From: Gammaproteobacteria bacterium | GTDB taxonomy: Bacteria > Pseudomonadota > Gammaproteobacteria > HK1 | Length of the DNA: 64,000 nt | NCBI GenBank assembly: GCA_021773635.1 | Contig: JAJFJV010000023.1 | Coordinates: 62,001-126,000, forward strand | Direction of reading: 5' to 3' | In this document: positions 1,447-62,254 of the stretch, one piece after another | Numbering within the stretch: the stretch's first letter is position 1 | Layout of the letters: each line of letters opens with the position of its first letter | Notes under the pieces: generated by a model | What the model was told of the DNA's origin: nothing | Database searches by the model: none | The model's input: only the letters and a program-made list of their open reading frames with translations | Translations under genes and position numbers: made by a program

Positions 1447-1614
1447 ATGAGCAAAAAATCACACAAACCATCACGCCGAAATCCCATTGCCCAATATGCA
1501 GCACGATTCCAGCGGGCACCCACATTTCGTGACCGCACCAAATACCAGCGGCACAATAAGCACAAGGGCGTGAATCCTGGCCAGTGGGCACTATACTCAG
1601 TGCACAGTGGCTAG
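1447..1614 (+). CDS. arfA: ArfA-like alternative ribosome-rescue factor
   Basis: A 55-codon gene with a strong Shine-Dalgarno (AAAGGAGA, about 7 bases upstream). The product is very basic and contains NPIAQ near residue 12, then PTFRDR near residue 25 and a basic tail HNKHKG; this order resembles the N-x-A..P-L-F-R-x-R..KGKG layout of ArfA, which binds ribosomes stalled on non-stop mRNA and recruits RF2. The last 15 codons and the stop lie inside a long hairpin, as in E. coli arfA, where RNase III cleavage or early termination removes the stop so that tmRNA tags the product. The homology is by eye and short, so identity is probable, not certain. It faces the converging metallopeptidase gene. 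Confidence 0.55.
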   Translation: MSKKSHKPSRRNPIAQYAARFQRAPTFRDRTKYQRHNKHKGVNPGQWALYSVHSG

Positions 1615-1625
1615 GATTCACGCCC
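1566..1625 (+). promoter_or_regulatory. long hairpin covering the 3' end of arfA-like gene
   Basis: GGGCGTGAATCCT (1566-1578) pairs perfectly with AGGATTCACGCCC (1613-1625). The stem continues through GGCCA/TGGCT with one G-U pair, and the loop contains GCACT/AGTGC. No T-run follows, so it looks more like an RNase III substrate than an intrinsic terminator. Placement across the stop codon is the key feature. Confidence 0.7.
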
Positions 1626-1641
1626 CTATCCGACATACATA

Positions 1642-1953
1642 TTAAGCATGCTTGGCTAACTCCGCTTCCATCACCTCATAGTTGCCCAGGTGTGCCCGCA
1701 TCAGGCTTTTCCAAAGCCGACCATGATTCTGCACAAAGAAATGCAGCAGTTCATGGACAATCACGTAGTCCCAGAGTGTTTCCTCAATGCCAAGCAGCTC
1801 GGCATTGAAATTCAGGTGACCGTTGGTGGAACAGGAGGCCCACTTGTTGCGCATTGGTCGGACGCCCAGCCAATTCACCTTCACATCCAGCTTGTTGGCC
1901 CAGTGATATACCCGCGCCTTGAAGGCGTGCTTCTGTGCATCGTGCGGGCTCAT
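1642..1953 (-). CDS. YgjP/WLM-like zinc metallopeptidase, short form
   Basis: A 103-residue protein with the zinc motif HELLH followed by NHGRLW (about residues 67-83), the HExxH...NHxxxFW pattern of the YgjP family, and the upstream family block KWASCSTNGHLNFN. It is roughly half the usual family length, corresponding to the catalytic core only. Its first base overlaps the last base of hsdR, so it is the last gene of the defence operon. Short metallopeptidases of this family are recurrent neighbours of type I restriction genes; the substrate is unknown. It may process a partner protein, but that is inference. Confidence 0.8.
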   Translation of the reverse strand: MSPHDAQKHAFKARVYHWANKLDVKVNWLGVRPMRNKWASCSTNGHLNFNAELLGIEETLWDYVIVHELLHFFVQNHGRLWKSLMRAHLGNYEVMEAELAKHA

Positions 1954-4889
1954 TAGATGCTGTTCGCCTTCTCCAGTAACGCAAATAATTCATCGACCAG
2001 CGCTGTCACCTGATCCAGGTCATCTGTTTCTGCAAAAATGGCAAACGTCACCTTCTTGCGCAGCTCGCGCAGGGAATGCTCGCTCTGCGTCCAGTTGGGA
2101 AACTCGATAAATGCGGCCTTGATCTTACGGCTTACGGCCTCGGCCTTATCGATCTTCGCATCGAGCAGGGTTCGATAGACAAACCAGGTCAGTCCGTCAA
2201 AACCTTTCTCGGCCTGTTCCTTCTTTCGCGTCTCGTTCGCCTTGACGTCCTTCAGCAGCGCCGCCAGCGCCTCGGCGGCGCTGGTCTGGCGGTTTTCAAA
2301 ACTCTCCTGCACCGCCCGGGCACGTTCGGCCATCGCGATCAGGTTCGGATCATCGCTTTCATCTTCCGCCTTCTTCTCGATACTCTTGACCAGATTTATG
2401 ACCTTGCTGCCGTCACCACCCGATTTCGAAACGATGTACTTCACCGTCTCTTCGTTAATCTCCAGCACCTCGGAGACGGGCTGGATATAGTCCGTCCCCA
2501 CGTATTGCTGTACCAGTTCGCTGGTCTTTTTCTGGAAGGCGCGATCCACTTGTACCCGTTTGGTGTAGGCCTTGCGCACCACGTCATAGATGGCTGACAA
2601 GGTGCCGTAGCCCTCAATGAACGGCCGCAGAAAGGCATCCGGCGAGATGATCTCGTAGAGCATCTCGATTTCCTTGTACTCCTTGAAAAACGCCTTGCGC
2701 CGCTCCGGATCACGGAAGTGTTCAATCAGGGCATCGACATCCTTGTCGTCGAAGTTCCGCTCGATCAGCACCAGGTAATCCGGAACCTGCTGTTCCATCT
2801 TGTTCTGGAACAGCACTTTCAGCAGCTTGAGATCCTTGACGATGGCATTCACTTCTTCGCTATCGAAGGCAAGCGCCTTTTCCAGCTTGTCAAAGATGCC
2901 GACGAAATCGAGGACGAAGCCGTGGGGCTTCACCATCTCGGCCGCCTCATTCTCGTAGGGGCGGTTCACCCGGGCGATGGCCTGGAGCAGAGTGTGATCG
3001 CGCATCGGCTTGTCGAGATACATGGCGTAGAGCACAGGCGCATCAAAGCCGGTGAGCAACTTCTCGGTGACAATCAGGATATTGGGTTGCTGATCAAGCT
3101 TGCAGAAGCTCTTGCGGATCTGCCGCTCCCGCTTCTGATCGAGGTGGAATTCTTTGAGTAGCGCCGAGTCATTGTTGCTGCCGGTGTAAACCACCTCGGA
3201 ATACTCGGGTGGCACGCCAAGTTTATTAAATTCGGCGTCTAAAGCATGCTTGTAGTGGGCACAGGCCTCGCGGTCGACGCCCACCAGGAAGGCCTTGTAG
3301 CCGAGCGGCTCGACGTTCTCTCGATAGTGCCTGGCCACATACTCCGCCACCTTGCAGATGCGGTCCTTACCCTTGAGGAAGTTCTTCAGGTTCACCGCCC
3401 GTTCTAGGATCTTGTTCAGCTCCTCGATATCAGCCACGCCCTCGGCCTCGGCCAGCGACAAGAACTCCTTGTCGAGGGTTTCATGCGGCACCAGCATCTC
3501 ATTGGGCGCAAGGTTGTAGTAGAGCGGCAGGGTGGTACCGTCCTCAATGCTGTCGGCGATGGAATACTTGTGCAGATAACCCTTGTCGTCCTCGCAGCCA
3601 AAGGTCTTGAAAGTACCCTTGCCGTAGGCAGTCTTGTCTACCGGGGTGCCGGTGAAACCGATGTAACTGGCATTCGGCAGGCCGGCCATCAGGAAGTTGC
3701 CCAGATCGCCACCGGTGGTGCGGTGAGCTTCGTCAATCAGGATGTAGATATTCGAGCGCGTGTTGAGGTCCGCCGGCATGTCGCGGAACTTGTGGATCAT
3801 CGTCACGATGATACCCCGGTAGTCGTCTCGCAACAGCTTGTTGAGCCGGGCAATGCTGCTAGCGTGTTCCAGATTACCCAGCCCCAGCGCGGCCAGATTC
3901 TTGAGCATCTGATCTTCCAGCTCGTTGCGGTCGATCATTAGCAGGATGGTCGGTTTATCCGCCCTTGGGGCACGAAAGAGCCGTTCCGCCGCCTTGATCA
4001 TGGTGAAGGTCTTGCCACTGCCCTGGGTATGCCAGACCAAGCCGCGTGTACGCCCGGTATCAAGGGCACGACTGACCACCCGCTCCACCGCACCGGTCTG
4101 GTGCTGGCGCAGGATGTATTTGTTCAGCTCCTCGTCCTTCTCGGCAAAGACGATATAGTCCTTCAGGAAAGCCAACACCTGCGGGATGGCACAGAAGCTC
4201 TTCACCTTGGCCTCCAGCTTGCCGACCTCCTCATCCTTCCAGTTGAATATATTCCGCCGCACCATGTTCCAGCTCACCCCGTAGGAAAAGCCGATGGCGT
4301 CGGTGGCAGTGAAAAGCTGCTCGGGCACGAACAGCTCCGGTGTCTCGCGGTGGTAGCGGCGGATTTGATCCACCCCAAGGGCAATCGCCTCGTCCTTGTT
4401 GGCGTTCTTGCACTCGATCACCAGCACCGGGATGCCGTTGATCAGGAAAACCACATCCTCGCGGGTGCCGTAATGGCCGTTGTGAAAGGCCCACTCCTCG
4501 GTGACTTCGTAAACGTTGTTCGCCGGGTCCTCGTAATCGATCAGGATCAGGTCGCGTTCACGCTTCTCCTCATGGTCGAAGAACTTGCCCCGGTTGCGCA
4601 GATGCTCGACGAATTCCCGGTTGCCGTAGATGTCGGTGTGGAGATAGCGGAACTTGCCGAGTAGTGCGCCCTCGGCCTCGACATAACGCGGGTTGAATTC
4701 ACGCACCTTGGCGTCGAGCAGGTCGTCGAAAAATAATGAGCGGTTTTTGGCGCGTTCTTTCGGCAACGCGTCCAGCTCAAACCCGCGCCGCTGCTCGGCT
4801 TCCTCGCGGGACACAAGCGTCCAACCGATGGCCTCGGCGTATTTTAGGATGCGGGCCTGGACGGTCTTGTGTTCTCCGGGTGTAGGCAT
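1953..4889 (-). CDS. hsdR: type I restriction endonuclease subunit R
   Basis: At 978 residues this is a full-length HsdR, the translocating and cleaving subunit of a type I restriction complex. The N-terminal PD-(D/E)xK nuclease is seen as INGIPVLVIECKNA near residue 150. The SF2 motor follows with Walker A HTQGSGKTFT near residue 290, DEAH in LIDEAHRT near 387, and later motifs FTGTPVD and QAIARVNRPY. The C-terminal helical part is of the kind that contacts the methylase core. It starts 6 bases after the herA stop and ends overlapping the metallopeptidase. It would cut unmodified DNA recognised by the HsdS of this operon. Confidence 0.95.
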   Translation of the reverse strand: MPTPGEHKTVQARILKYAEAIGWTLVSREEAEQRRGFELDALPKERAKNRSLFFDDLLDAKVREFNPRYVEAEGALLGKFRYLHTDIYGNREFVEHLRNRGKFFDHEEKRERDLILIDYEDPANNVYEVTEEWAFHNGHYGTREDVVFLINGIPVLVIECKNANKDEAIALGVDQIRRYHRETPELFVPEQLFTATDAIGFSYGVSWNMVRRNIFNWKDEEVGKLEAKVKSFCAIPQVLAFLKDYIVFAEKDEELNKYILRQHQTGAVERVVSRALDTGRTRGLVWHTQGSGKTFTMIKAAERLFRAPRADKPTILLMIDRNELEDQMLKNLAALGLGNLEHASSIARLNKLLRDDYRGIIVTMIHKFRDMPADLNTRSNIYILIDEAHRTTGGDLGNFLMAGLPNASYIGFTGTPVDKTAYGKGTFKTFGCEDDKGYLHKYSIADSIEDGTTLPLYYNLAPNEMLVPHETLDKEFLSLAEAEGVADIEELNKILERAVNLKNFLKGKDRICKVAEYVARHYRENVEPLGYKAFLVGVDREACAHYKHALDAEFNKLGVPPEYSEVVYTGSNNDSALLKEFHLDQKRERQIRKSFCKLDQQPNILIVTEKLLTGFDAPVLYAMYLDKPMRDHTLLQAIARVNRPYENEAAEMVKPHGFVLDFVGIFDKLEKALAFDSEEVNAIVKDLKLLKVLFQNKMEQQVPDYLVLIERNFDDKDVDALIEHFRDPERRKAFFKEYKEIEMLYEIISPDAFLRPFIEGYGTLSAIYDVVRKAYTKRVQVDRAFQKKTSELVQQYVGTDYIQPVSEVLEINEETVKYIVSKSGGDGSKVINLVKSIEKKAEDESDDPNLIAMAERARAVQESFENRQTSAAEALAALLKDVKANETRKKEQAEKGFDGLTWFVYRTLLDAKIDKAEAVSRKIKAAFIEFPNWTQSEHSLRELRKKVTFAIFAETDDLDQVTALVDELFALLEKANSI

Positions 4890-13440: not shown

Positions 13441-13487
13441 TCGCTGCTGTCCCGTTAGCTTTGGGTGAATTCGGCCAGATGCCTCGC
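13441..13487 (+). repeat. left-terminus fragment of the MITE family
   Basis: TCGCTGCTGTCCCGTTAGCT followed by TTGGGTGAATTCGGCC matches the first about 45 bases of the complete element at 48723 with only a few changes. The right end is missing. It lies in the gap between the ATPase start and the squalene synthase-type gene. Confidence 0.65.
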
Positions 13488-47265: not shown

Positions 47266-48618
47266 TCAGGGCCAGATACCCCGCTGCAAGGTTACCCGCG
47301 CCACGTGCTCAATTGCCTGCACCAGTGCCGCAATTCTGAGATTTACCTCCAGCGACGCACCGACAGACTCATCACTCACACTCCCTGCAGACAGGGTCCG
47401 CCACCGCCCCATTACCGCATCCACCGCGGCGTACATTTTCCGGCGCAGCTTCTCGTTCACTTCCTCAAGTGACCAGCTTTCATTGGCGAGATTCTGTACC
47501 CACTCAAAATAGCTGACCGTGACCCCACCTGCGTTGGCCAGAATATCTGGCAGCACCGGAATCTGCTTTGCCTGCAGTATCTCGTCCGCCATCAGGGTCA
47601 CAGGCCCGTTGGCCGCCTCTACCACCAGCCTGGCCGCAACACGCTCGGCATTGTCGTAGCGGATAACTGCGCCGAGAGCAGCGGGAATGAGGATGTCGCA
47701 TTCCAGCGCAAGCAGATCCTGATTGCTCAGAGTCTGGGTATCCGGGGTCCCGACCACGGTGCCCACCTCCTGTTTCTGGGTGCTCACCGCATCCAGGTCA
47801 AGTCCCTCCTCCGCGTAAATGCCACCCTTGGAGTCACTCACCGCAACAACCACGGCTCCCGCCTCCTGAAACAGGCTTGCTGCCACGGAGCCGACGTTGC
47901 CAAAACCCTGAACCACCACCCGCGCACCCGCCACGGAGGACAGGCCGGGCAGCCCGGCCTGCGCGAGAAAGCGCTCGGTGGCATAAAGACACCCACGGCC
48001 AGTGGCTTCCATCCGTCCAAGTGAACCTCCAAGCTCCAACGGCTTTCCGGTGACTACGGGAAGGTTATTTTGGCCCGGGTGGAGAATATCGTAGGTATCG
48101 TAAATCCAGGCCATGGTGCGCTCATCGGTATACATGTCGGGGGCCGGGATATCGGTCTGGGGGCCGATTTCATCACCCAGTTCGCTGATAAAGCGCCGGG
48201 TAATGTGCCTTAATTCTGCCTCGCTAAGTACCTTGGGGTCGCAGATAACGCCCCCCTTGGCACCACCAAACGGAAGATTGGCGATGGCACACTTCCAGGT
48301 CATCAGCGCGGCAAGGGATGCGACCTCTGCACGGGTAATCTCGGGGTGATAGCGAATCCCGCCCTTGCCCGGACCCAGGACATGGTTGTGCAGGATTCGG
48401 TAACCGTGAAAGGTACGCACCGTGCCATCGTCCATTTCCACCGGAAAACAGACCCCAATGGTGCGCTTGGGCGCCTTGAAAAAATCGATCAGGCCTTCCT
48501 TAAAACCGGCGATATAGGCCGCAGCCTGTTCAAAACGCTGCTGGGCAATAAACTGTGGATCCAGATTCTCGACACTTGCCCGATCCTCGTCGGCCGGCTT
48601 TGTCACCACTTCCATCAT
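47266..48618 (-). CDS. gdhA: glutamate dehydrogenase (Glu/Leu/Phe/Val family)
   Basis: The frame opens at 48708, but GGGAGG lies just before the ATG at 48618 (MMEVVTKPAD), giving 450 residues. Substrate-site blocks are visible: GGIRYHPEITRAEVASLAALMTWKCAIANLPFGGAKGG, with the catalytic lysine, then PAPDMYTDERTMAWIYDTY, and the dinucleotide fold VVVQGFGNVGS. It interconverts glutamate and 2-oxoglutarate. It is divergent from a second family member at 49035. A MITE has moved in between, pushing the shared FNR box away from this gene. Confidence 0.93.
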   Translation of the reverse strand: MMEVVTKPADEDRASVENLDPQFIAQQRFEQAAAYIAGFKEGLIDFFKAPKRTIGVCFPVEMDDGTVRTFHGYRILHNHVLGPGKGGIRYHPEITRAEVASLAALMTWKCAIANLPFGGAKGGVICDPKVLSEAELRHITRRFISELGDEIGPQTDIPAPDMYTDERTMAWIYDTYDILHPGQNNLPVVTGKPLELGGSLGRMEATGRGCLYATERFLAQAGLPGLSSVAGARVVVQGFGNVGSVAASLFQEAGAVVVAVSDSKGGIYAEEGLDLDAVSTQKQEVGTVVGTPDTQTLSNQDLLALECDILIPAALGAVIRYDNAERVAARLVVEAANGPVTLMADEILQAKQIPVLPDILANAGGVTVSYFEWVQNLANESWSLEEVNEKLRRKMYAAVDAVMGRWRTLSAGSVSDESVGASLEVNLRIAALVQAIEHVARVTLQRGIWP

Positions 48619-48722
48619 CCTGAACCTCCCGTTCGATAGCTCCGAAATTACCCGTTGAGGCGCCCTGATTGCAACCATGCCCTGACCCTGTGACTGGAGT
48701 CCAAACAATGAATATTGATCAT

Positions 48723-48938
48723 CACTGCTGTCCCGTTAACTTTGGGTGAATTCGGCCATATGCCTTGTTAGAAAAAGCCAGACGGATGCATAGTCGCCTG
48801 GAAGACATGAAAATTAAAAAAGAGCCCCGTCATTCCGGACAACGTTTTTTGCTGAGCCGGAATCCAGGTTTTTCAAGTGCTTATCTGCATACCGGGTCAA
48901 GCCCGGCATGACGGATCTTAGTTAACGGGACAGCAGTG
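48723..48938. mobile_element. complete MITE with 19-bp terminal inverted repeats
   Basis: CACTGCTGTCCCGTTAACT at the left (48723-48741) and its perfect complement at the right (48920-48938) bound a 216-base non-coding element. It is flanked by 9-base direct repeats ATTGATCAT (48714-48722 and 48939-48947), as expected for a target-site duplication; counting the border T and A as part of the repeat would give 7 bases. The size of duplication and the CA terminus are reminiscent of IS4-type elements. Inside lies a copy of the CGTCAT...ATGACGG repeat family. Fragments are at 1339 and 13441. Confidence 0.85.
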
Positions 48939-48939
48939 A

Positions 48940-48953
48940 TTGATCATGATCAA
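48940..48953 (+). promoter_or_regulatory. perfect FNR/ANR box before the 2-oxoacid oxidation operon
   Basis: TTGATCATGATCAA matches TTGAT-N4-ATCAA exactly. Its centre lies 41.5 bases before about 48988; a TTTACT at 48976-48981 is a fair -10 element for that start point, the classic activated FNR layout. The box abuts the right end of the MITE, whose target duplication includes half of it. It controls, by inference, the operon starting at 49035. Confidence 0.75.
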
Positions 48954-49034
48954 TAGACCTGTGGCGACGGTGTGCTTTACTCAGAAGTAACCAAGTCTTT
49001 TTCGTAGCTCGTACGCCTTCAGGGGAGAGCGGTT

Positions 49035-50168
49035 ATGGAAGACGTGTTTGCATTTGCGGATGAACTGGGGCCACTGAAAGTCATCCACGTTCACGAACCC
49101 TCGGCGAGCCTGCGTGCAGTACTGGTGGTGGACAATATTGCCAAGGGGCCTTCCATCGGCGGGGTGCGTATTGCCCCCGATGTGAGCACTGAAGAGTGCT
49201 TCCGGCTGGCCCGGGCGATGACGCTGAAAAATGCCGCGGCGGGACTGCCCCACGGTGGCGGCAAGGCGGTGGTTTACGGCGATCCCCGGATGCCGCCAGC
49301 CGACAAGGAAATCCTGATCCGCACGCTGGCTAACGCGCTGCGCAACACTGAGGACTACATTTTCGGGCCCGACATGGGTACCGACGAGACCTGCATGGCG
49401 TGGGTCAAGGACGAGATAGGGCGGGCCGTAGGACTGCCGCGCGAAATCGGCGGCATCCCGCTGGATGAAATTGGTGCCACCGGCTGGGGTCTCTGCCACG
49501 CTACCAAAGTGGCGGCGCAATATTGTGGACTCGAATTGGCCGGCGCCCGGGTCGCGGTGCAGGGATTCGGTGCAGTAGGCAAGAATGCGGCGCGGTTTCT
49601 GGGTGATCGGGGCGCCGTACTGGTGGCGGCCGCCGACTCCCAGGGAACGATCCACAATCCCGCCGGGCTGGATGTACAGCAGCTCATCGCCATCAAACAA
49701 CAAGGCGGCTCGGTGATCGATCATGCCGGGGGCGAGACAAAGGATTGTGATGCCATTATCGATGTGGAATGTGACATCTGGATTCCTGCCGCCCGGCCGG
49801 ATGTGATCCACGCGGACAATGTGCAGCGGCTCAACACGAAGCTGATCATGCAGGGCGCCAACATCGCGGTTACCCACGATGCCGAACAAATGCTCGCGGA
49901 CCGGGACATCCTCTGCGTACCCGATTTTATCGCCAATGCCGGCGGCGTGATCTGCGCCGCGATGGAATATCGTGGTGCCAGCGAAGGTGCGGCACTGCAA
50001 TTTATCGAGGAAAAATTGCGCCGCAACACGGAACTGGTGCTCGCGGAAGCCAAAGAGCGCCACATCCTGCCTCGCGCGGCAGCCATGGAGATGGCACTGG
50101 CCCGGGTTAAAAAGGCCATGAGTCTGCGACGCTTCTCGCTATTTTCCACCGCTCCCGGTTTCGTCTGA
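49035..50168 (+). CDS. leucine/valine-type amino acid dehydrogenase
   Basis: A 377-residue member of the Glu/Leu/Phe/Val dehydrogenase family. It shows GGVRIAPDVSTEECFRLARAMTLKNAAAGLPHGGGKAVV (catalytic Lys region) and the NAD fold VAVQGFGAVGKNAARFLGDRGA. It is shorter than GdhA and of the leucine dehydrogenase group in layout. Deamination of a branched-chain amino acid would give the 2-oxoacid used by the ferredoxin oxidoreductase encoded next. Its TGA overlaps the start of the gamma subunit gene. Confidence 0.85.
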   Translation: MEDVFAFADELGPLKVIHVHEPSASLRAVLVVDNIAKGPSIGGVRIAPDVSTEECFRLARAMTLKNAAAGLPHGGGKAVVYGDPRMPPADKEILIRTLANALRNTEDYIFGPDMGTDETCMAWVKDEIGRAVGLPREIGGIPLDEIGATGWGLCHATKVAAQYCGLELAGARVAVQGFGAVGKNAARFLGDRGAVLVAAADSQGTIHNPAGLDVQQLIAIKQQGGSVIDHAGGETKDCDAIIDVECDIWIPAARPDVIHADNVQRLNTKLIMQGANIAVTHDAEQMLADRDILCVPDFIANAGGVICAAMEYRGASEGAALQFIEEKLRRNTELVLAEAKERHILPRAAAMEMALARVKKAMSLRRFSLFSTAPGFV

Positions 50169-51121
50169 TGTACCGCATCCGCTTTCACGGGCGCGGCGGA
50201 CAGGGCATGAAAACCGCCAGCCGGGTACTGGGCACGGCCTTCTTTCAGCAAGGCTTTCAAGTGCAGGACGCGCCGCGCTATGGCGCCGAACGCCGTGGTG
50301 CACCGATCTTCGCCTACGTACGCGCGTCCCGCACAGCTATCAATGAACGCGGAGTCATCCGCCACCCTGATCTGGTGGCGATTGCCGACGACAGCCTCGT
50401 TTCCTCGCCGGCGGCTGGCGTGCTGCAAGGGCTTGGCCCTGGCACAACCATGCTCATTAACAGTCACGATACCCCGGAAGTATGGCGACACCGGCTGAAT
50501 CTTGACGCCACAATCCTGATCGTACCCGTGGGAGAAGAAGTCACGGATCGCGCTGATCTGCCCTTCGCCGGCATGGTGTGCGCCGCAGCGGCGGCAAGGC
50601 TGGTCGGCGTGATCGGACGTGAAGCGCTGGCAGCGGCAATCCGCGAGGAACTGGGTGCCCACGGCAATGCCCTGGCGGATCGCAATATCGAAACCGCGCT
50701 CCACACCTATGACCTGATGCAGGATCACGCCGGTGCAGTCACCGAAGGCACGGAAATCAGTGCCGAAAACTATGCTTCACCGCAGTGGATAGACCTGCCA
50801 CTGGAGAATGCTGGCCGGGCGGCACCGAGCATCCACGCCGCTGCCACCAGCACGCTGTTAAAAACCGGACTGTGGCGCACCATGCGCCCGGAGATTGACT
50901 ACACCCATTGCAACCGCTGCTGGTGGGTGTGCAGCACCTTCTGTCCCGACAGCGCGATCCGGGTGAACGAGGCGGGTTTGCCGGAAATCGATTATGACCA
51001 CTGCAAGGGCTGCCTGATCTGCGTAGCCAAGTGTCCACCCCACGCCATCGAAGCAATCCCGGAGCATTTGGCCCAGGCAAGAGAGGAGAAGGCACATGCG
51101 GCCAAAACTCCTGACCGGTAA
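50168..51121 (+). CDS. 2-oxoacid:ferredoxin oxidoreductase, gamma-delta fusion
   Basis: A 317-residue fusion of the gamma domain (FHGRGGQGMKTASRVLGTAFF; about residues 1-185) with a C-terminal ferredoxin-like delta domain. The latter has two 4Fe-4S motifs: CNRCWWVCSTFCP (with one residue more than the standard first spacing) and CKGCLICVAKCPP. It passes electrons from the TPP enzyme to ferredoxin. It overlaps the alpha gene by 26 bases. Such complexes oxidise pyruvate, 2-oxoisovalerate or similar acids to acyl-CoA. Confidence 0.92.
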   Translation: MYRIRFHGRGGQGMKTASRVLGTAFFQQGFQVQDAPRYGAERRGAPIFAYVRASRTAINERGVIRHPDLVAIADDSLVSSPAAGVLQGLGPGTTMLINSHDTPEVWRHRLNLDATILIVPVGEEVTDRADLPFAGMVCAAAAARLVGVIGREALAAAIREELGAHGNALADRNIETALHTYDLMQDHAGAVTEGTEISAENYASPQWIDLPLENAGRAAPSIHAAATSTLLKTGLWRTMRPEIDYTHCNRCWWVCSTFCPDSAIRVNEAGLPEIDYDHCKGCLICVAKCPPHAIEAIPEHLAQAREEKAHAAKTPDR

Positions 51122-52340
51122 TGCCGCGGCCGCCTGGGGCGCACGCCTTGCCCGGGTGGATTACGTACCGGCCTTTCCCATCACGCCGCAGACCGAGATC
51201 ATAGAAACTCTTGGTCGCTGGATTGAAGGTGCCGAGATGCCGGGGCGCATGGTCACCCTGGAATCGGAGCATTCCATGATCACCGCGGCGGGAGCGGCCG
51301 CTTCGACCGGGGTGCGGGTCTTTAGCGCCACCTCAAGTCAGGGCCTGCTGTATGGCATGGAAATGATCTATACCGTAGCCGGCTGGCGCGCGCCCTTCGT
51401 GCTGGTCAACGTCTCCCGTGGCCTCGCCTCGCCCATCACCCTGGAGCCGGATCACAATGATGTGCTAGCAGCGCGCGACAGCGGTTTTCTGCAAATCCAT
51501 TGCGCCACCTGTCAGGAGGTGCTGGACAGCGTGATCATGGCCTACCGCATTGCCGAAGATCCGCGGGTGCGCTTGCCAGTCATCGTTAACCTGGACGGCT
51601 TCTACCTGTCCTTCACCCGCGAACCGGTGGATATTCCAGAGCCCGATAGTGTGGCGGACTTTCTGCCCGCCTACGATCCGGAGAGCACCCGTTTTCGCGC
51701 CAGCAGCCCCAACAGTCAGGCCGTTGCCGTACTGGGAGGTGCGCCTTATTCCTATTTTCGTTACGAGAGCCATCTGGCTTCTCTGAACGCGCTAGGCGTA
51801 CACACGGAAGTGGCGGAGGCCTTTGCGCAGCAATTTGGCCGCCGCTACGAGGCGGTGGAGGCTTATCGCTGCGAGGATGCTGAAATCATCTTCCTGATGA
51901 TCGGATCTTTCGCCACCAAGGCGAAGGCGGCCGTCGATGGACTGCGCAACGCGGGGGAATCTGTCGGGCTGGCGCGCCCACGCCTGCTGCGCCCGCTACC
52001 CACCGACGAACTCGCACGAATACTGGGCGGCAAGCAGGCAGTCGCGGTCATCGATCAAAATATTTCCATGGGTATGGGGGGGGTGCTGCACGCGGAGCTC
52101 GCCTCGACGCTCTATGGCAAGGCTAATGCCCCCCCGGTGCTCACCAGTTTTATCGGTGGACTGGGTGGCCGCGATATCAGTCCGGAGGAGTTTTACGAGA
52201 TTGCCGCCATTACCCGTGAGGCGGTAAAGAGCGGTGTCACGCCACCGCCACGACTGCTGTACACGGAGCAGGAATACCGCGAGGTGCAGAAGTTGCAAGC
52301 CATCGCGCACGCCGAGCGATACGAGGTGGGAGCGGAATAA
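51096..52340 (+). CDS. 2-oxoacid:ferredoxin oxidoreductase, alpha subunit
   Basis: A 414-residue alpha subunit. The N-terminal pyrimidine-binding part has GNAAAAWGARLARVDYVPAFPITPQTEI and TLESEHSMITAAGAAASTGVR with the key glutamate; SSQGLLYGMEMIYTVAGWRAP follows. The transketolase-C-like part shows VAVIDQNISMGMGG near residue 325. It lies between the gamma-delta and beta genes and shares their stop/start overlaps, so the three are one complex. Confidence 0.93.
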   Translation: MRPKLLTGNAAAAWGARLARVDYVPAFPITPQTEIIETLGRWIEGAEMPGRMVTLESEHSMITAAGAAASTGVRVFSATSSQGLLYGMEMIYTVAGWRAPFVLVNVSRGLASPITLEPDHNDVLAARDSGFLQIHCATCQEVLDSVIMAYRIAEDPRVRLPVIVNLDGFYLSFTREPVDIPEPDSVADFLPAYDPESTRFRASSPNSQAVAVLGGAPYSYFRYESHLASLNALGVHTEVAEAFAQQFGRRYEAVEAYRCEDAEIIFLMIGSFATKAKAAVDGLRNAGESVGLARPRLLRPLPTDELARILGGKQAVAVIDQNISMGMGGVLHAELASTLYGKANAPPVLTSFIGGLGGRDISPEEFYEIAAITREAVKSGVTPPPRLLYTEQEYREVQKLQAIAHAERYEVGAE

Positions 52341-53257
52341 TGGCCAAAACCCCCATCAGACGCATGAAGGACCTGCCCTCCTCCCATCTGTTCGGTAGTG
52401 GTACGCCCATGTGTGCCGGTTGTGGAGGACTGGAGTCGCTGCACCAGATCTACGAGATACTCGGCCCCCGCACCGTATTCGTGAATGCCGCTGGCTGTAT
52501 GACCCTGTTGGCGATTTACCCCTTCACCCCCTTTCGTGGCTCCTGGCTTTATACCGCGATGGCCTCGGCACCAGCCGGAGCCCAAGGCATCCGGGATGCC
52601 CTGGATATCCTGCTTGAACAACAGCGCATGGAGCCTGCGGAGGACCTGAACGTGGTGGTTCTCACCGGAGATGGCTCCGCCAACGGCATGGGCCTCTCCG
52701 CTACCTCGGCGGCCATGGAACGCAACCTGGACTTCCTCTATATCTGCTATGACAACGAGGGCTACGGCAACACCGGCCAACAATTCTCAGCCGCTACACC
52801 CCACGGCGCGAGGACCGCGACCAGCACCGGCCCCCACGGCTTTAGCGGCAACAAGAAAGACCTGTTCTCCATCTGGGCGGCACACAAACCCGCCTACGTG
52901 GCCACGGCCATCGGCGCGGAACCCGTGGACCTCGCACGCAAGATTGAAGCCGCAAAGCAACTGAAGGGGCCCCGGCTGATCATCACGCTGGCGCCCTGCC
53001 CACCTGGCTGGGATTTTGATCCCCGCGACGCAGCGGACATCGGCAAGCTGGCAGTCAAAACCGGGATCTGGCCACTCAAGGAATATGTCGACGGCAAGGT
53101 GGTGCACAGCAAAATTCCCCACCCGCGACTACCCGTGGAAGAATATCTGCAGACCCAGGGACGTTTTTCCCATCTGTTTCACCCGCGCCGTGATGAAGGC
53201 CTGCTGGCGGAGATCCAGGACAGCGTCGACCGCTACTGGAACGGGATCACGGAATAG
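52340..53257 (+). CDS. 2-oxoacid:ferredoxin oxidoreductase, beta subunit
   Basis: A 305-residue beta subunit with the TPP-binding motif GDGSANGMGLSATSAAMERN (about residue 112 onward) and DNEGYGNTGQQFSAATPHGA after it. The front has CAGCGG near residue 25, cysteines that bind a 4Fe-4S cluster in this family, and a later CPPG. It overlaps the alpha stop by one base. The complex is oxygen-sensitive, which fits an FNR-controlled operon. Confidence 0.93.
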   Translation: MAKTPIRRMKDLPSSHLFGSGTPMCAGCGGLESLHQIYEILGPRTVFVNAAGCMTLLAIYPFTPFRGSWLYTAMASAPAGAQGIRDALDILLEQQRMEPAEDLNVVVLTGDGSANGMGLSATSAAMERNLDFLYICYDNEGYGNTGQQFSAATPHGARTATSTGPHGFSGNKKDLFSIWAAHKPAYVATAIGAEPVDLARKIEAAKQLKGPRLIITLAPCPPGWDFDPRDAADIGKLAVKTGIWPLKEYVDGKVVHSKIPHPRLPVEEYLQTQGRFSHLFHPRRDEGLLAEIQDSVDRYWNGITE

Positions 53258-53284: not shown

Positions 53285-54988
53285 ATGCTCACAAATCCTG
53301 AAAGCTACAGGCATCGTGGTGGTGATAAACCACTGCTCGGAAGCACGATCCCGCAACACTTCAATGAGGTAGCAGCCCGCTTTCCGGACCATGAAGCGGT
53401 GGTGTCCCTGGTTCAGGGCCAGCGGCTCAGCTATGCAGAGCTGGCCGAGACAGTCAGGGAACTGGCCCGTGGCCTGCTGGGACTCGGCTTCAACAAAGGC
53501 GATCGCATCGGCATCTGGTCCACCAATAACCTGCAATGGCTGCTGCTGCAAATGGCCACCGCCCACATCGGTGCGGTGCTGGTCAATATCAATCCCGCCT
53601 GCCGGACCAGGGAGCTCGCCTACGCGTTGCAGCGCTCCGAGGTCAACGGCCTGTTTCTGATTCCCGGTTTTCGGCACAGTGATTACATTGCGATACTGAC
53701 GGAGCTGATTCCGCGACTTAAGGACGAGGCCACGCTCCCGAAGGATGGGGATTTTCCAGCCCTGCGACGGGTGGTGGTTTACGACCCGGCGGCACCCACA
53801 GAAACCCGCCGTCCGCATCCCGGCTTCACCACCTGGCCCGAGTTACAGGCCGCAGCCGCAACGGTGTCGAGTAACGAGCTTGCAACTGTCACCGGCGGAC
53901 TGGATCGGGATGACCCCATCAACATCCAGTTCACCTCCGGTACCACCGGTTCCCCGAAAGCCGTGGTGCTAAGTCACCACAATATCCTCAACAACGCGTG
54001 GTTTTGTGCCCGGCGCATGCATTTTAACGAGGCCGATCGCCTCGCGGTACCCGTACCCTTCTATCACTGCTTTGGCATGGTGCTAGCGAATCTCCTGTGC
54101 CTCTCGGTGGGTGCCTGCATAGTGATTCCCTGCGAACACTTCGATGCCGGGGCGGTACTGAAGGCGGTGGAAAGTGAGCGCTGCACGGCGATTCACGGTG
54201 TACCGACCATGTTCATTGCCGAACTTGAACACCCGCAATTTCGTGACTTCCGGCTCGAGACCCTGCGCACCGGCATCATGGCAGGCTCGCCATGCCCGGC
54301 CACGCTGATGCAGAGAGTGATGAACGAGATGCATTGCCGGGAAATCCTCATTGGCTACGGCGAAACCGAGGCCTCACCGCTCACCCACCTGACCGCCCCG
54401 GATGACAGCCTGGAGCGTCGGGTCGAGACCGTGGGCACCAACCTGCCCCACCAGGAGGTGAAGATCGTCGATGTGGAGAGCCGGGCCACAGTGCCGCTGG
54501 GAACCGTCGGAGAGATCTGTTTTCGCGGCTACCACATCATGCACGGTTACTATGGCGATGCAGAGGCTACTGCCAAGTCTCTCGATGAGTACGGCTGGCT
54601 TGCCTCGGGGGATCTGGGCACGATGGATGCCGACGGCTACCTGAAAATCACCGGGCGGCTCAAGGAAATGATCATTCGTGGCGGTGAAAACATCTATCCA
54701 CGTGAGATCGAGGACTTTATCTTCAGCCATCCCAAGGTAGCAGAGGTAGCGGTTTTTGGGATTCCCGATGCCTACTATGGCGAGGAAATCATGGCCTGGA
54801 TTCAGCTACACGAGGGTGAAACCGCGACGGTCGAGGAAATCCGGGACTACTGCAAAGGCAGGATCGCCCACTTCAAGATTCCGAAGCACGTCCGTTTCGT
54901 CAGTGAATTTCCCATGACCGTGACCGGAAAATTACAAAAACACCGTATGCGTGAACTGGCCCTGGAGAAAACGGCCACCCCTGATTGA
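53285..54988 (+). CDS. acyl-CoA synthetase (AMP-forming)
   Basis: A 567-residue ANL-superfamily ligase. Core motifs are FTSGTTGSPKAVVLSHHNI near residue 217, YGETEASPLTH near 358, and the late GRLKEMIIRGGENIYPREIEDF plus TVTGKLQKHRMRE with the catalytic lysine. It activates a carboxylic acid to its CoA thioester. It lies 27 bases behind the oxidoreductase beta gene, so it probably works with the acyl-CoA or acid made there; fatty acid length cannot be told. Confidence 0.93.
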   Translation: MLTNPESYRHRGGDKPLLGSTIPQHFNEVAARFPDHEAVVSLVQGQRLSYAELAETVRELARGLLGLGFNKGDRIGIWSTNNLQWLLLQMATAHIGAVLVNINPACRTRELAYALQRSEVNGLFLIPGFRHSDYIAILTELIPRLKDEATLPKDGDFPALRRVVVYDPAAPTETRRPHPGFTTWPELQAAAATVSSNELATVTGGLDRDDPINIQFTSGTTGSPKAVVLSHHNILNNAWFCARRMHFNEADRLAVPVPFYHCFGMVLANLLCLSVGACIVIPCEHFDAGAVLKAVESERCTAIHGVPTMFIAELEHPQFRDFRLETLRTGIMAGSPCPATLMQRVMNEMHCREILIGYGETEASPLTHLTAPDDSLERRVETVGTNLPHQEVKIVDVESRATVPLGTVGEICFRGYHIMHGYYGDAEATAKSLDEYGWLASGDLGTMDADGYLKITGRLKEMIIRGGENIYPREIEDFIFSHPKVAEVAVFGIPDAYYGEEIMAWIQLHEGETATVEEIRDYCKGRIAHFKIPKHVRFVSEFPMTVTGKLQKHRMRELALEKTATPD

Positions 54989-60843: not shown

Positions 60844-62088
60844 TTACTGACTGGCCTTAATCATATCTCCCGCGGGCGTTCGTCGAGTGGTCAAGGCATC
60901 CCAGCGCCGCTGCAGATCCGCCGGGTCTTCATCCTTATGCCGGTGGCAAGTCTGGCAGGAATTCGGAATACCGGTCTCAATCGTATCCTTGGGCAACAAC
61001 GCCGTGAACACGTGGCTGCGGATATCTCCGGATTCAGCGCTCTTGGCAATCCTGGGCATGTGACAGTTCGCGCAGTTGCCAAAGGAATGGACCGAATGGG
61101 CACCGACTTCGGCAACCTGCTCATGGCAGGAAACACAAAGCTTGTCGCCCTCAAGCTTGGTCTTGCTGTGGAACAGCGGATTGCCAAGCTGATGAACCAC
61201 GTGACAGGTCAGGCAGCCTACCCCGCTGTCTGCATGACGCGACTTCTTCCAGTCGATGTACTGTTGATGATGGCCCTTGGACAGACCACTGGCATAGAGA
61301 TGCTTGTCTCCAAGTTCAATAGACCGGTAGTAGCTCTCCAGTGCCTTGCCCGGTCGGTAGCCCACGGGCCAGCCCGCACCCTTGGCCTTGGTTGACTTGC
61401 CGCGGTTATGGCATGAGCCACAGATCTGGACAGCCACCCCACCCGTCAGCTTGCTCGGGTTGACGATGGTAGCGCGCTTCTCGAAAGTCTCCGACGCGGG
61501 CAGGGCCGCGTGGTGTGAACCGGGTCCGTGACAGGCCTCGCAGCCAACCCCCGGCTCCTTGAAGGCCTCTTTCTCCAGATCAACACCAGTAGCATGGCAG
61601 CCACCACATTTCTTCAGCCAGGGACGCTTGTCCCAATCCTGCTCGTGGTAGTTGACCCAACGGCCGGTATCGATGTTGAACTGGGTCGGAGCAATGAAGT
61701 AGGTGCCATCTTTTTGGATCAGGAAACGCTGCTTCCACTGGCTACCGATGGTGTATTTGACCTCTTCACGTTTGAGAAAGTAGACCTGATCCAGCGGAAC
61801 CTTGAGCTTTTTCTCAATCTTCTTGAAGTCAGCTTTCATCACCTCCTGATCCAGATCAACGACAATGGCGTCCTCATTTTTGGAGACGTCCTGCAGCATC
61901 TTGCTGTGCAGCGTCCGCTTCCAGGCATCGTAGTGTTCGAGGTGGCAAGTCTTGCAGACCTCCGACCCGATGTAGGCCTTGGGTTCCGAGAGGAGCTTTT
62001 TCGAGTCTATAGCCTGCGCACCCGCGGACTGGAGACAGAAAACCGAGAGTGATGCCACCAGAAGGAAAAACCTGGGTAAGTGTGCCAT
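60844..62088 (-). CDS. octaheme c-type cytochrome
   Basis: A 414-residue periplasmic multiheme protein with a Sec signal (LLVASLSVFCLQSAGAQA) and eight CxxCH sites: CKTCH, CGGCH, CEACH, CGSCH, CLTCH, CVSCH, CANCH and CQTCH. The ordering and HGPGSHH/HNRG context resemble the c554/NapC-linked multiheme family rather than the nitrite reductase NrfA, because no CxxCK site is visible. It is the first gene of the three-gene operon. Its substrate is not known; the FNR box upstream suggests anaerobic or low-oxygen induction. Confidence 0.9.
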   Translation of the reverse strand: MAHLPRFFLLVASLSVFCLQSAGAQAIDSKKLLSEPKAYIGSEVCKTCHLEHYDAWKRTLHSKMLQDVSKNEDAIVVDLDQEVMKADFKKIEKKLKVPLDQVYFLKREEVKYTIGSQWKQRFLIQKDGTYFIAPTQFNIDTGRWVNYHEQDWDKRPWLKKCGGCHATGVDLEKEAFKEPGVGCEACHGPGSHHAALPASETFEKRATIVNPSKLTGGVAVQICGSCHNRGKSTKAKGAGWPVGYRPGKALESYYRSIELGDKHLYASGLSKGHHQQYIDWKKSRHADSGVGCLTCHVVHQLGNPLFHSKTKLEGDKLCVSCHEQVAEVGAHSVHSFGNCANCHMPRIAKSAESGDIRSHVFTALLPKDTIETGIPNSCQTCHRHKDEDPADLQRRWDALTTRRTPAGDMIKASQ

Positions 62089-62240: not shown

Positions 62241-62254
62241 TTGATCTCAATCAA
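62241..62254 (-). promoter_or_regulatory. perfect FNR/ANR box upstream of the cytochrome operon
   Basis: TTGATCTCAATCAA matches TTGAT-N4-ATCAA exactly, about 160 bases before the octaheme cytochrome start on the minus strand. No -10 element at the ideal 41.5-base offset is obvious. The rest of the 62089-62370 gap holds no gene. Confidence 0.65.

Follow-up and report, generated by a model that had tools for sequence, protein, structure and literature searches.

A MITE insertion within an FNR-type box between gdhA and a 2-oxoacid oxidoreductase operon

We found a 216-bp MITE inserted in a perfect FNR box between gdhA and a divergent operon for a 2-oxoacid:acceptor oxidoreductase. The event is an ordinary IS4Sa-type MITE insertion, placed in a regulator site. 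In the reading that we favor, to which we give a probability of roughly two in three, the box served mainly the rightward operon and was rebuilt on that side, so that the operon would keep a putative class II activation, and the effect on gdhA was probably small.

Anatomy of the insertion

In the window (the whole 64,000-nucleotide stretch of DNA analyzed here), the MITE lies between two 9-bp direct repeats, both exact copies of ATTGATCAT (Table 1). The inverted arms at 48721-48741 and 48920-48940 are 21 nt long and 100% complementary. Once the flanks are joined, they read TATTGATCATGATCAATA, an 18-bp palindrome without mismatches in which the FNR dyad TTGATCATGATCAA is embedded. The original prediction had proposed a 216-base element with a 9-base duplication, which proved exact to the base, and one continuous FNR dyad restored in the joined flanks, which is indeed there and is perfect. 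It had also placed the full box only on the right, more than 300 bases from gdhA. This is where the surviving box lies, 321 bases from the gdhA ATG (48618), compared with 96 bases at the empty site, and 81 bases from the operon ATG (49035). On the gdhA side, the left copy of the duplication is an FNR half-site (TTGAT) adjoining the MITE, and the 14-mer at 48715 mismatches the FNR consensus at 4 of 10 positions. The fold of the MITE is stable (z of -5.3 and -7.5). No Rfam match was found for it, and a strict scan revealed neither a promoter nor a terminator inside it.

Table 1. Features of the insertion locus and its neighboring genes, in window coordinates. G000 is the genome studied here; G001 and G002 are genomes of the same genus.
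Feature	Coordinates	Strand	Remarks
gdhA-type glutamate dehydrogenase, divergent	47266-48618	-	PF00208, PF02812
Left target site duplication copy, ATTGATCAT	48714-48722	.	Exact direct repeat with 48939-48947
MITE, non-autonomous, 216 bp; inner GTCATTCCGG / CCGGAATCCAGG module	48723-48938	+	Relatives in G000, G001 and G002
Left terminal inverted repeat, CACTGCTGTCCCGTTAACT	48723-48741	+	100% complementary to the right one; ends as in the 1271-1274-bp IS
Right terminal inverted repeat	48920-48938	-	Complementary to the left one
Right target site duplication copy	48939-48947	.	Forms the left portion of the box that survives
Complete FNR-type box, TTGATCATGATCAA	48940-48953	.	Perfect match to TTGATN4ATCAA; present in the G002 empty site
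Putative extended -10, TGC-TTTACT	48973-48981	+	Hexamer 22 bp after the box; sequence and spacing identical in G002
First operon gene, Glu/Leu/Phe/Val dehydrogenase-type	49035-50168	+	PF00208, PF02812
2-oxoacid:acceptor oxidoreductase	50168-53257	+	TIGR02175/TIGR02179, PorA- and PorB-type models
Oxidoreductase, fused gamma-delta subunit	50168-51121	+	
Oxidoreductase, alpha subunit	51096-52340	+	
Oxidoreductase, beta subunit	52340-53257	+	
AMP-forming acyl-CoA ligase, last operon gene examined	53285-54988	+	NF009233 above cut-off

The uninterrupted site in a related genome

In genome G002, gdhA and the operon are arranged alike, with protein identities of 90% and 88% and without the element. 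Its uninterrupted site, AATATTGATCACAATCAATAGACCTGTG, carries a perfect FNR box (TTGATCACAATCAA), of which ~0.0002 would be expected by chance in a 192-bp intergenic region. The original prediction had proposed a search for a relative with the empty site; in the one relative that has it the perfect box is present, so the contrary case, an empty site with no box, did not occur. Between G000 and G002, the box block is conserved at 22 of 24 positions, the block of the operon -10 at 15 of 15 and the gdhA side at 34 of 60. At the thresholds used, gdhA and the 2-oxoacid operon are both absent from G001, which suggests that the pair was gained or lost together in the genus. G000 and G002, which differ by exactly this insertion in an otherwise alignable control region, form a clean natural experiment on whether the box acted on one or on both of the divergent operons.

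The FNR box and the operon promoter

Perfect FNR boxes occur nine times in the genome, compared with none for a reversed-pattern control, and several of them precede nap/NapC-type and cytochrome genes. The genome encodes an FNR orthologue (L088, ORF 1459-2217, minus strand) with the four cluster cysteines (SC-AEC-SLMELC, SICELP) and the recognition helix ETVSR, and the G001 orthologue of this protein matches a chain of an FNR crystal structure at 1.6e-60. The site might also be bound by other CRP/FNR proteins that prefer it; sequence does not separate them from FNR. The MITE, the duplication, the empty site, the conservation of the box and the spacing are read directly from the sequence, and from there we infer FNR binding, activation and all of the expression effects discussed below.

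On the operon side, the hexamer TTTACT of the putative extended -10 is weak, matching at four of six positions and lacking the A at position 2, and a strict sigma-70 scan of the region found no promoter. Among E. coli FNR-activated promoters with a known start, the site is at -41.5 +/- 4 in 19 of 23 (PMC3688515). The cld gene of Ideonella dechloratans has been argued along the same lines to have a class II FNR promoter, also with a weak TG-extended -10 (PMC7349173). The box described here is placed as in a class II FNR promoter that would serve the 2-oxoacid operon. As in the class II promoters of E. coli dmsA, narG and nirB and of cld (PMC7349173), its center would be ~41.5 bp before the inferred start near 48988, and the TG-extended weak -10 that we propose resembles the one proposed for cld; unlike in those promoters, a transposon end abuts the box on its upstream side.

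A comparison across orthologues points the same way. Of 25 operon orthologues beyond the genus, five are preceded by a box with no more than one mismatch inside 350 bp; dinucleotide shuffles yield 0.32 on average, and none of the 400 shuffled sets reached five; the other 20 have no clear box. For G199, G026 and G061 (two-mismatch box; spacing in G061 read by eye from the sequence), a TATAAT-like hexamer lies 22-23 bp after the box. The original prediction that control of the operon was kept is supported by the class II geometry conserved in two species and by the boxes of orthologous operons.

Two further boxes were seen in the window. A multihaem-cytochrome-like ORF on the minus strand has a perfect one (TTGATCTCAATCAA, 62241-62254) ~150 bp in front of it and one with a single mismatch (61846-61859) within it. 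Elsewhere in the genome, a nap-type molybdopterin oxidoreductase cluster is preceded by a divergent region with a perfect box (L079, G000:C9:233065); a NapC-type gene lies near it, and the same contig carries the FNR gene and a hemN-like gene in the vicinity.

Choice of target

The MITE family prefers 9-mers that start with A and end with T, and by this preference ATTGATCAT ranks in the top 1.8% of all 9-mers in the window. Of 39 distinct insertion sites, this is the only one in an FNR box; the others all have at least three mismatches. We thus rejected the idea that the element targets FNR boxes; the hit is best explained by a loose preference in target choice.

Such a preference, which makes half-palindromes acceptable targets, would fit a neutral insertion, with a box that is non-functional either way and a coincidence that has no meaning. 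However, G002 shares the box, operon orthologues are preceded by boxes more often than expected, an FNR orthologue is present in the genome, and the nine perfect boxes contrast with none for the control pattern. We consider a neutral insertion very unlikely.

Possible effects on gdhA

Toward gdhA, no good -10 was found at class II spacing (18-26 bp), the best hexamers matching at two of six positions in G000 and three of six in G002, without conservation. Among 18 gdhA orthologues beyond the genus, two are preceded by a box (perfect in G229, one mismatch in G141), compared with 0.30 expected; this is borderline, as 18 of 400 shuffled sets also reach two. In both cases (L282 and L281, from other families), the box lies ~75 bp before the gdhA ATG and the divergent neighbors are unrelated, and gdhA may be under FNR control in these genomes. 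FNR control of gdhA is thus possible.

One may then suppose that the box controlled both directions, and that the MITE removed or changed the oxygen control of gdhA while the duplication spared the operon, uncoupling the two in one transposition step. The shift of the box from 96 to 321 bp before the gdhA ATG would agree with this, as would the boxes near -95 of the two orthologues with their unrelated divergent neighbors. The box is also 40 bp from a conserved TTGCAA in both species, as might be expected for a class I site near -82. Nevertheless, neither species has a good -10 toward gdhA at class II spacing, conservation on this side is only 34 of 60, and class I FNR sites are very few in E. 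coli (PMC3688515), so that we regard this scenario as rather unlikely. If it were true, two neighboring operons would have been separated in regulation by a single transposition. The original prediction had suggested such a course. Its interpretation stands for the operon, whose control appears to be kept, but the missing class II -10, the weak conservation and the boxes in only 2 of 18 orthologues tip the balance against gdhA having been cut off from oxygen control, and gdhA could have lost such control only if the box had acted as a class I site or in repression.

A different effect on gdhA would arise if the surviving box drove a leftward start from TAAGAT in the MITE, so that gdhA gained an FNR-dependent upstream start. 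This hexamer is on the minus strand, 19 bp left of the box, which makes a fusion promoter toward gdhA conceivable. It matches at four of six positions, including A2 and T6, and an IS5-made fusion promoter is known at E. coli fucAO (PMC11894529). However, a match of this quality is within the reach of chance (we estimate that such a hexamer arises in ~1/7 tries), the spacing departs from the optimum by 3 bp, and the transcript would have to cross the strongly folded MITE. A promoter of this kind seems to us very unlikely.

Proposed course of the insertion

In the reading that we favor, in which the box served mainly the operon, an IS4-family (IS4Sa-like) transposase would have moved the MITE into the perfect box, cutting the strands 9 bases apart inside the dyad, and gap repair would have doubled ATTGATCAT. 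The nine duplicated bases plus GATCAA account for the entire dyad, so the right ATTGATCAT copy and the untouched GATCAA would have restored a full box next to the operon, as far from the operon -10 as before. With the box back at its old distance, FNR should still activate the operon in class II fashion when oxygen is low. The strength of this activation may differ, since the DNA upstream of the box, a possible contact for RNA polymerase alpha, is now the MITE end. gdhA would be left with a half-site only and with an upstream spacer that is 225 bp longer. Since the box was most likely never a class II site for gdhA, the consequences for this gene were probably small. When a duplication overlaps a palindromic regulator site, at least one side always stays intact if the duplicated and neighboring bases rebuild the dyad. 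A full-text literature search found no paper on a MITE inserted in an FNR box.

The MITE family and its parent elements

G000 contains six full-length members of the family, 214-218 bp long and with both ends intact, besides several truncated copies; further copies are in G001 and G002. Its members are short and multicopy, have terminal inverted repeats of 19-21 bp (100%) and lack a transposase gene. For 40 of 64 terminal inverted repeat pairs, counted over all loci, 9-bp duplications match at eight or nine of nine positions, and exact duplications surround other copies (e.g., TGTGGAGAT and ATGTCGTAT). The six full-length copies, these duplications and the uninterrupted site in G002 together indicate that the insertion is not a product of chance. 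The element resembles the IS-derived MITEs of bacteria, such as Correia elements and MITEAba12 (reviewed in PMC10969869), in being short, non-coding, multicopy and intergenic, with terminal inverted repeats, a duplication and ends in common with an autonomous IS. Whereas the effects of those MITEs stem from signals that they carry (promoters, an IHF site, RNase sites), what is notable here is the site that was entered.

Among the matches listed, four autonomous full-length elements of 1271-1274 bp (L203, L120/L124, L133 and L202) share the ends of the MITE and have 9-bp duplications. Their transposase is of the DUF4372 + DDE_Tnp_1 type, and these IS4-family elements are likely the parents of the MITE. 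Within the IS4 family, the IS4Sa subgroup comprises elements of 1150-1750 bp with CA------T ends, 8-10-bp duplications and a DDE transposase with a YREK motif (PMC2266710). The element in L203 (1274 bp, ends CACTGCTGT, 9-bp duplication) agrees with this subgroup in size, ends and duplication length (PMC2266710 Table 1), as well as in the Y(2)R(3)E(6)K motif of its transposase, YKSRWQVELFFKWIK, which was read by eye. On these four features, the likely parent IS fits IS4Sa. Unlike IS4Sa elements (PMC2266710), the MITE itself has no transposase, and none was found in its own genome either: a parent-type transposase was detected in neither G000 nor G001, and G002 has fragments and one 50%-identical protein. 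Because no such transposase was found in G000 or G001, the MITE is probably immobile now in this genome, whose assembly consists of 46 contigs.

Neither the literature searched, in which we found no description of a MITE family with CACTGCTGTCCCGTTAA ends, nor a search with the end sequence, which returned unrelated papers only, pointed to an earlier account of the family. A scan of genome contigs with the end sequence gave at least 118 stretches. Among the matches listed, nearly all are from Gammaproteobacteria where the title states the taxon, and the IS4Sa-type MITE family with CACTGCTGTCCCGTTAA ends is found across many gammaproteobacterial MAGs. Elsewhere in the window, two fragments (1321-1359 and 13441-13484) carry single ends of the same MITE family.
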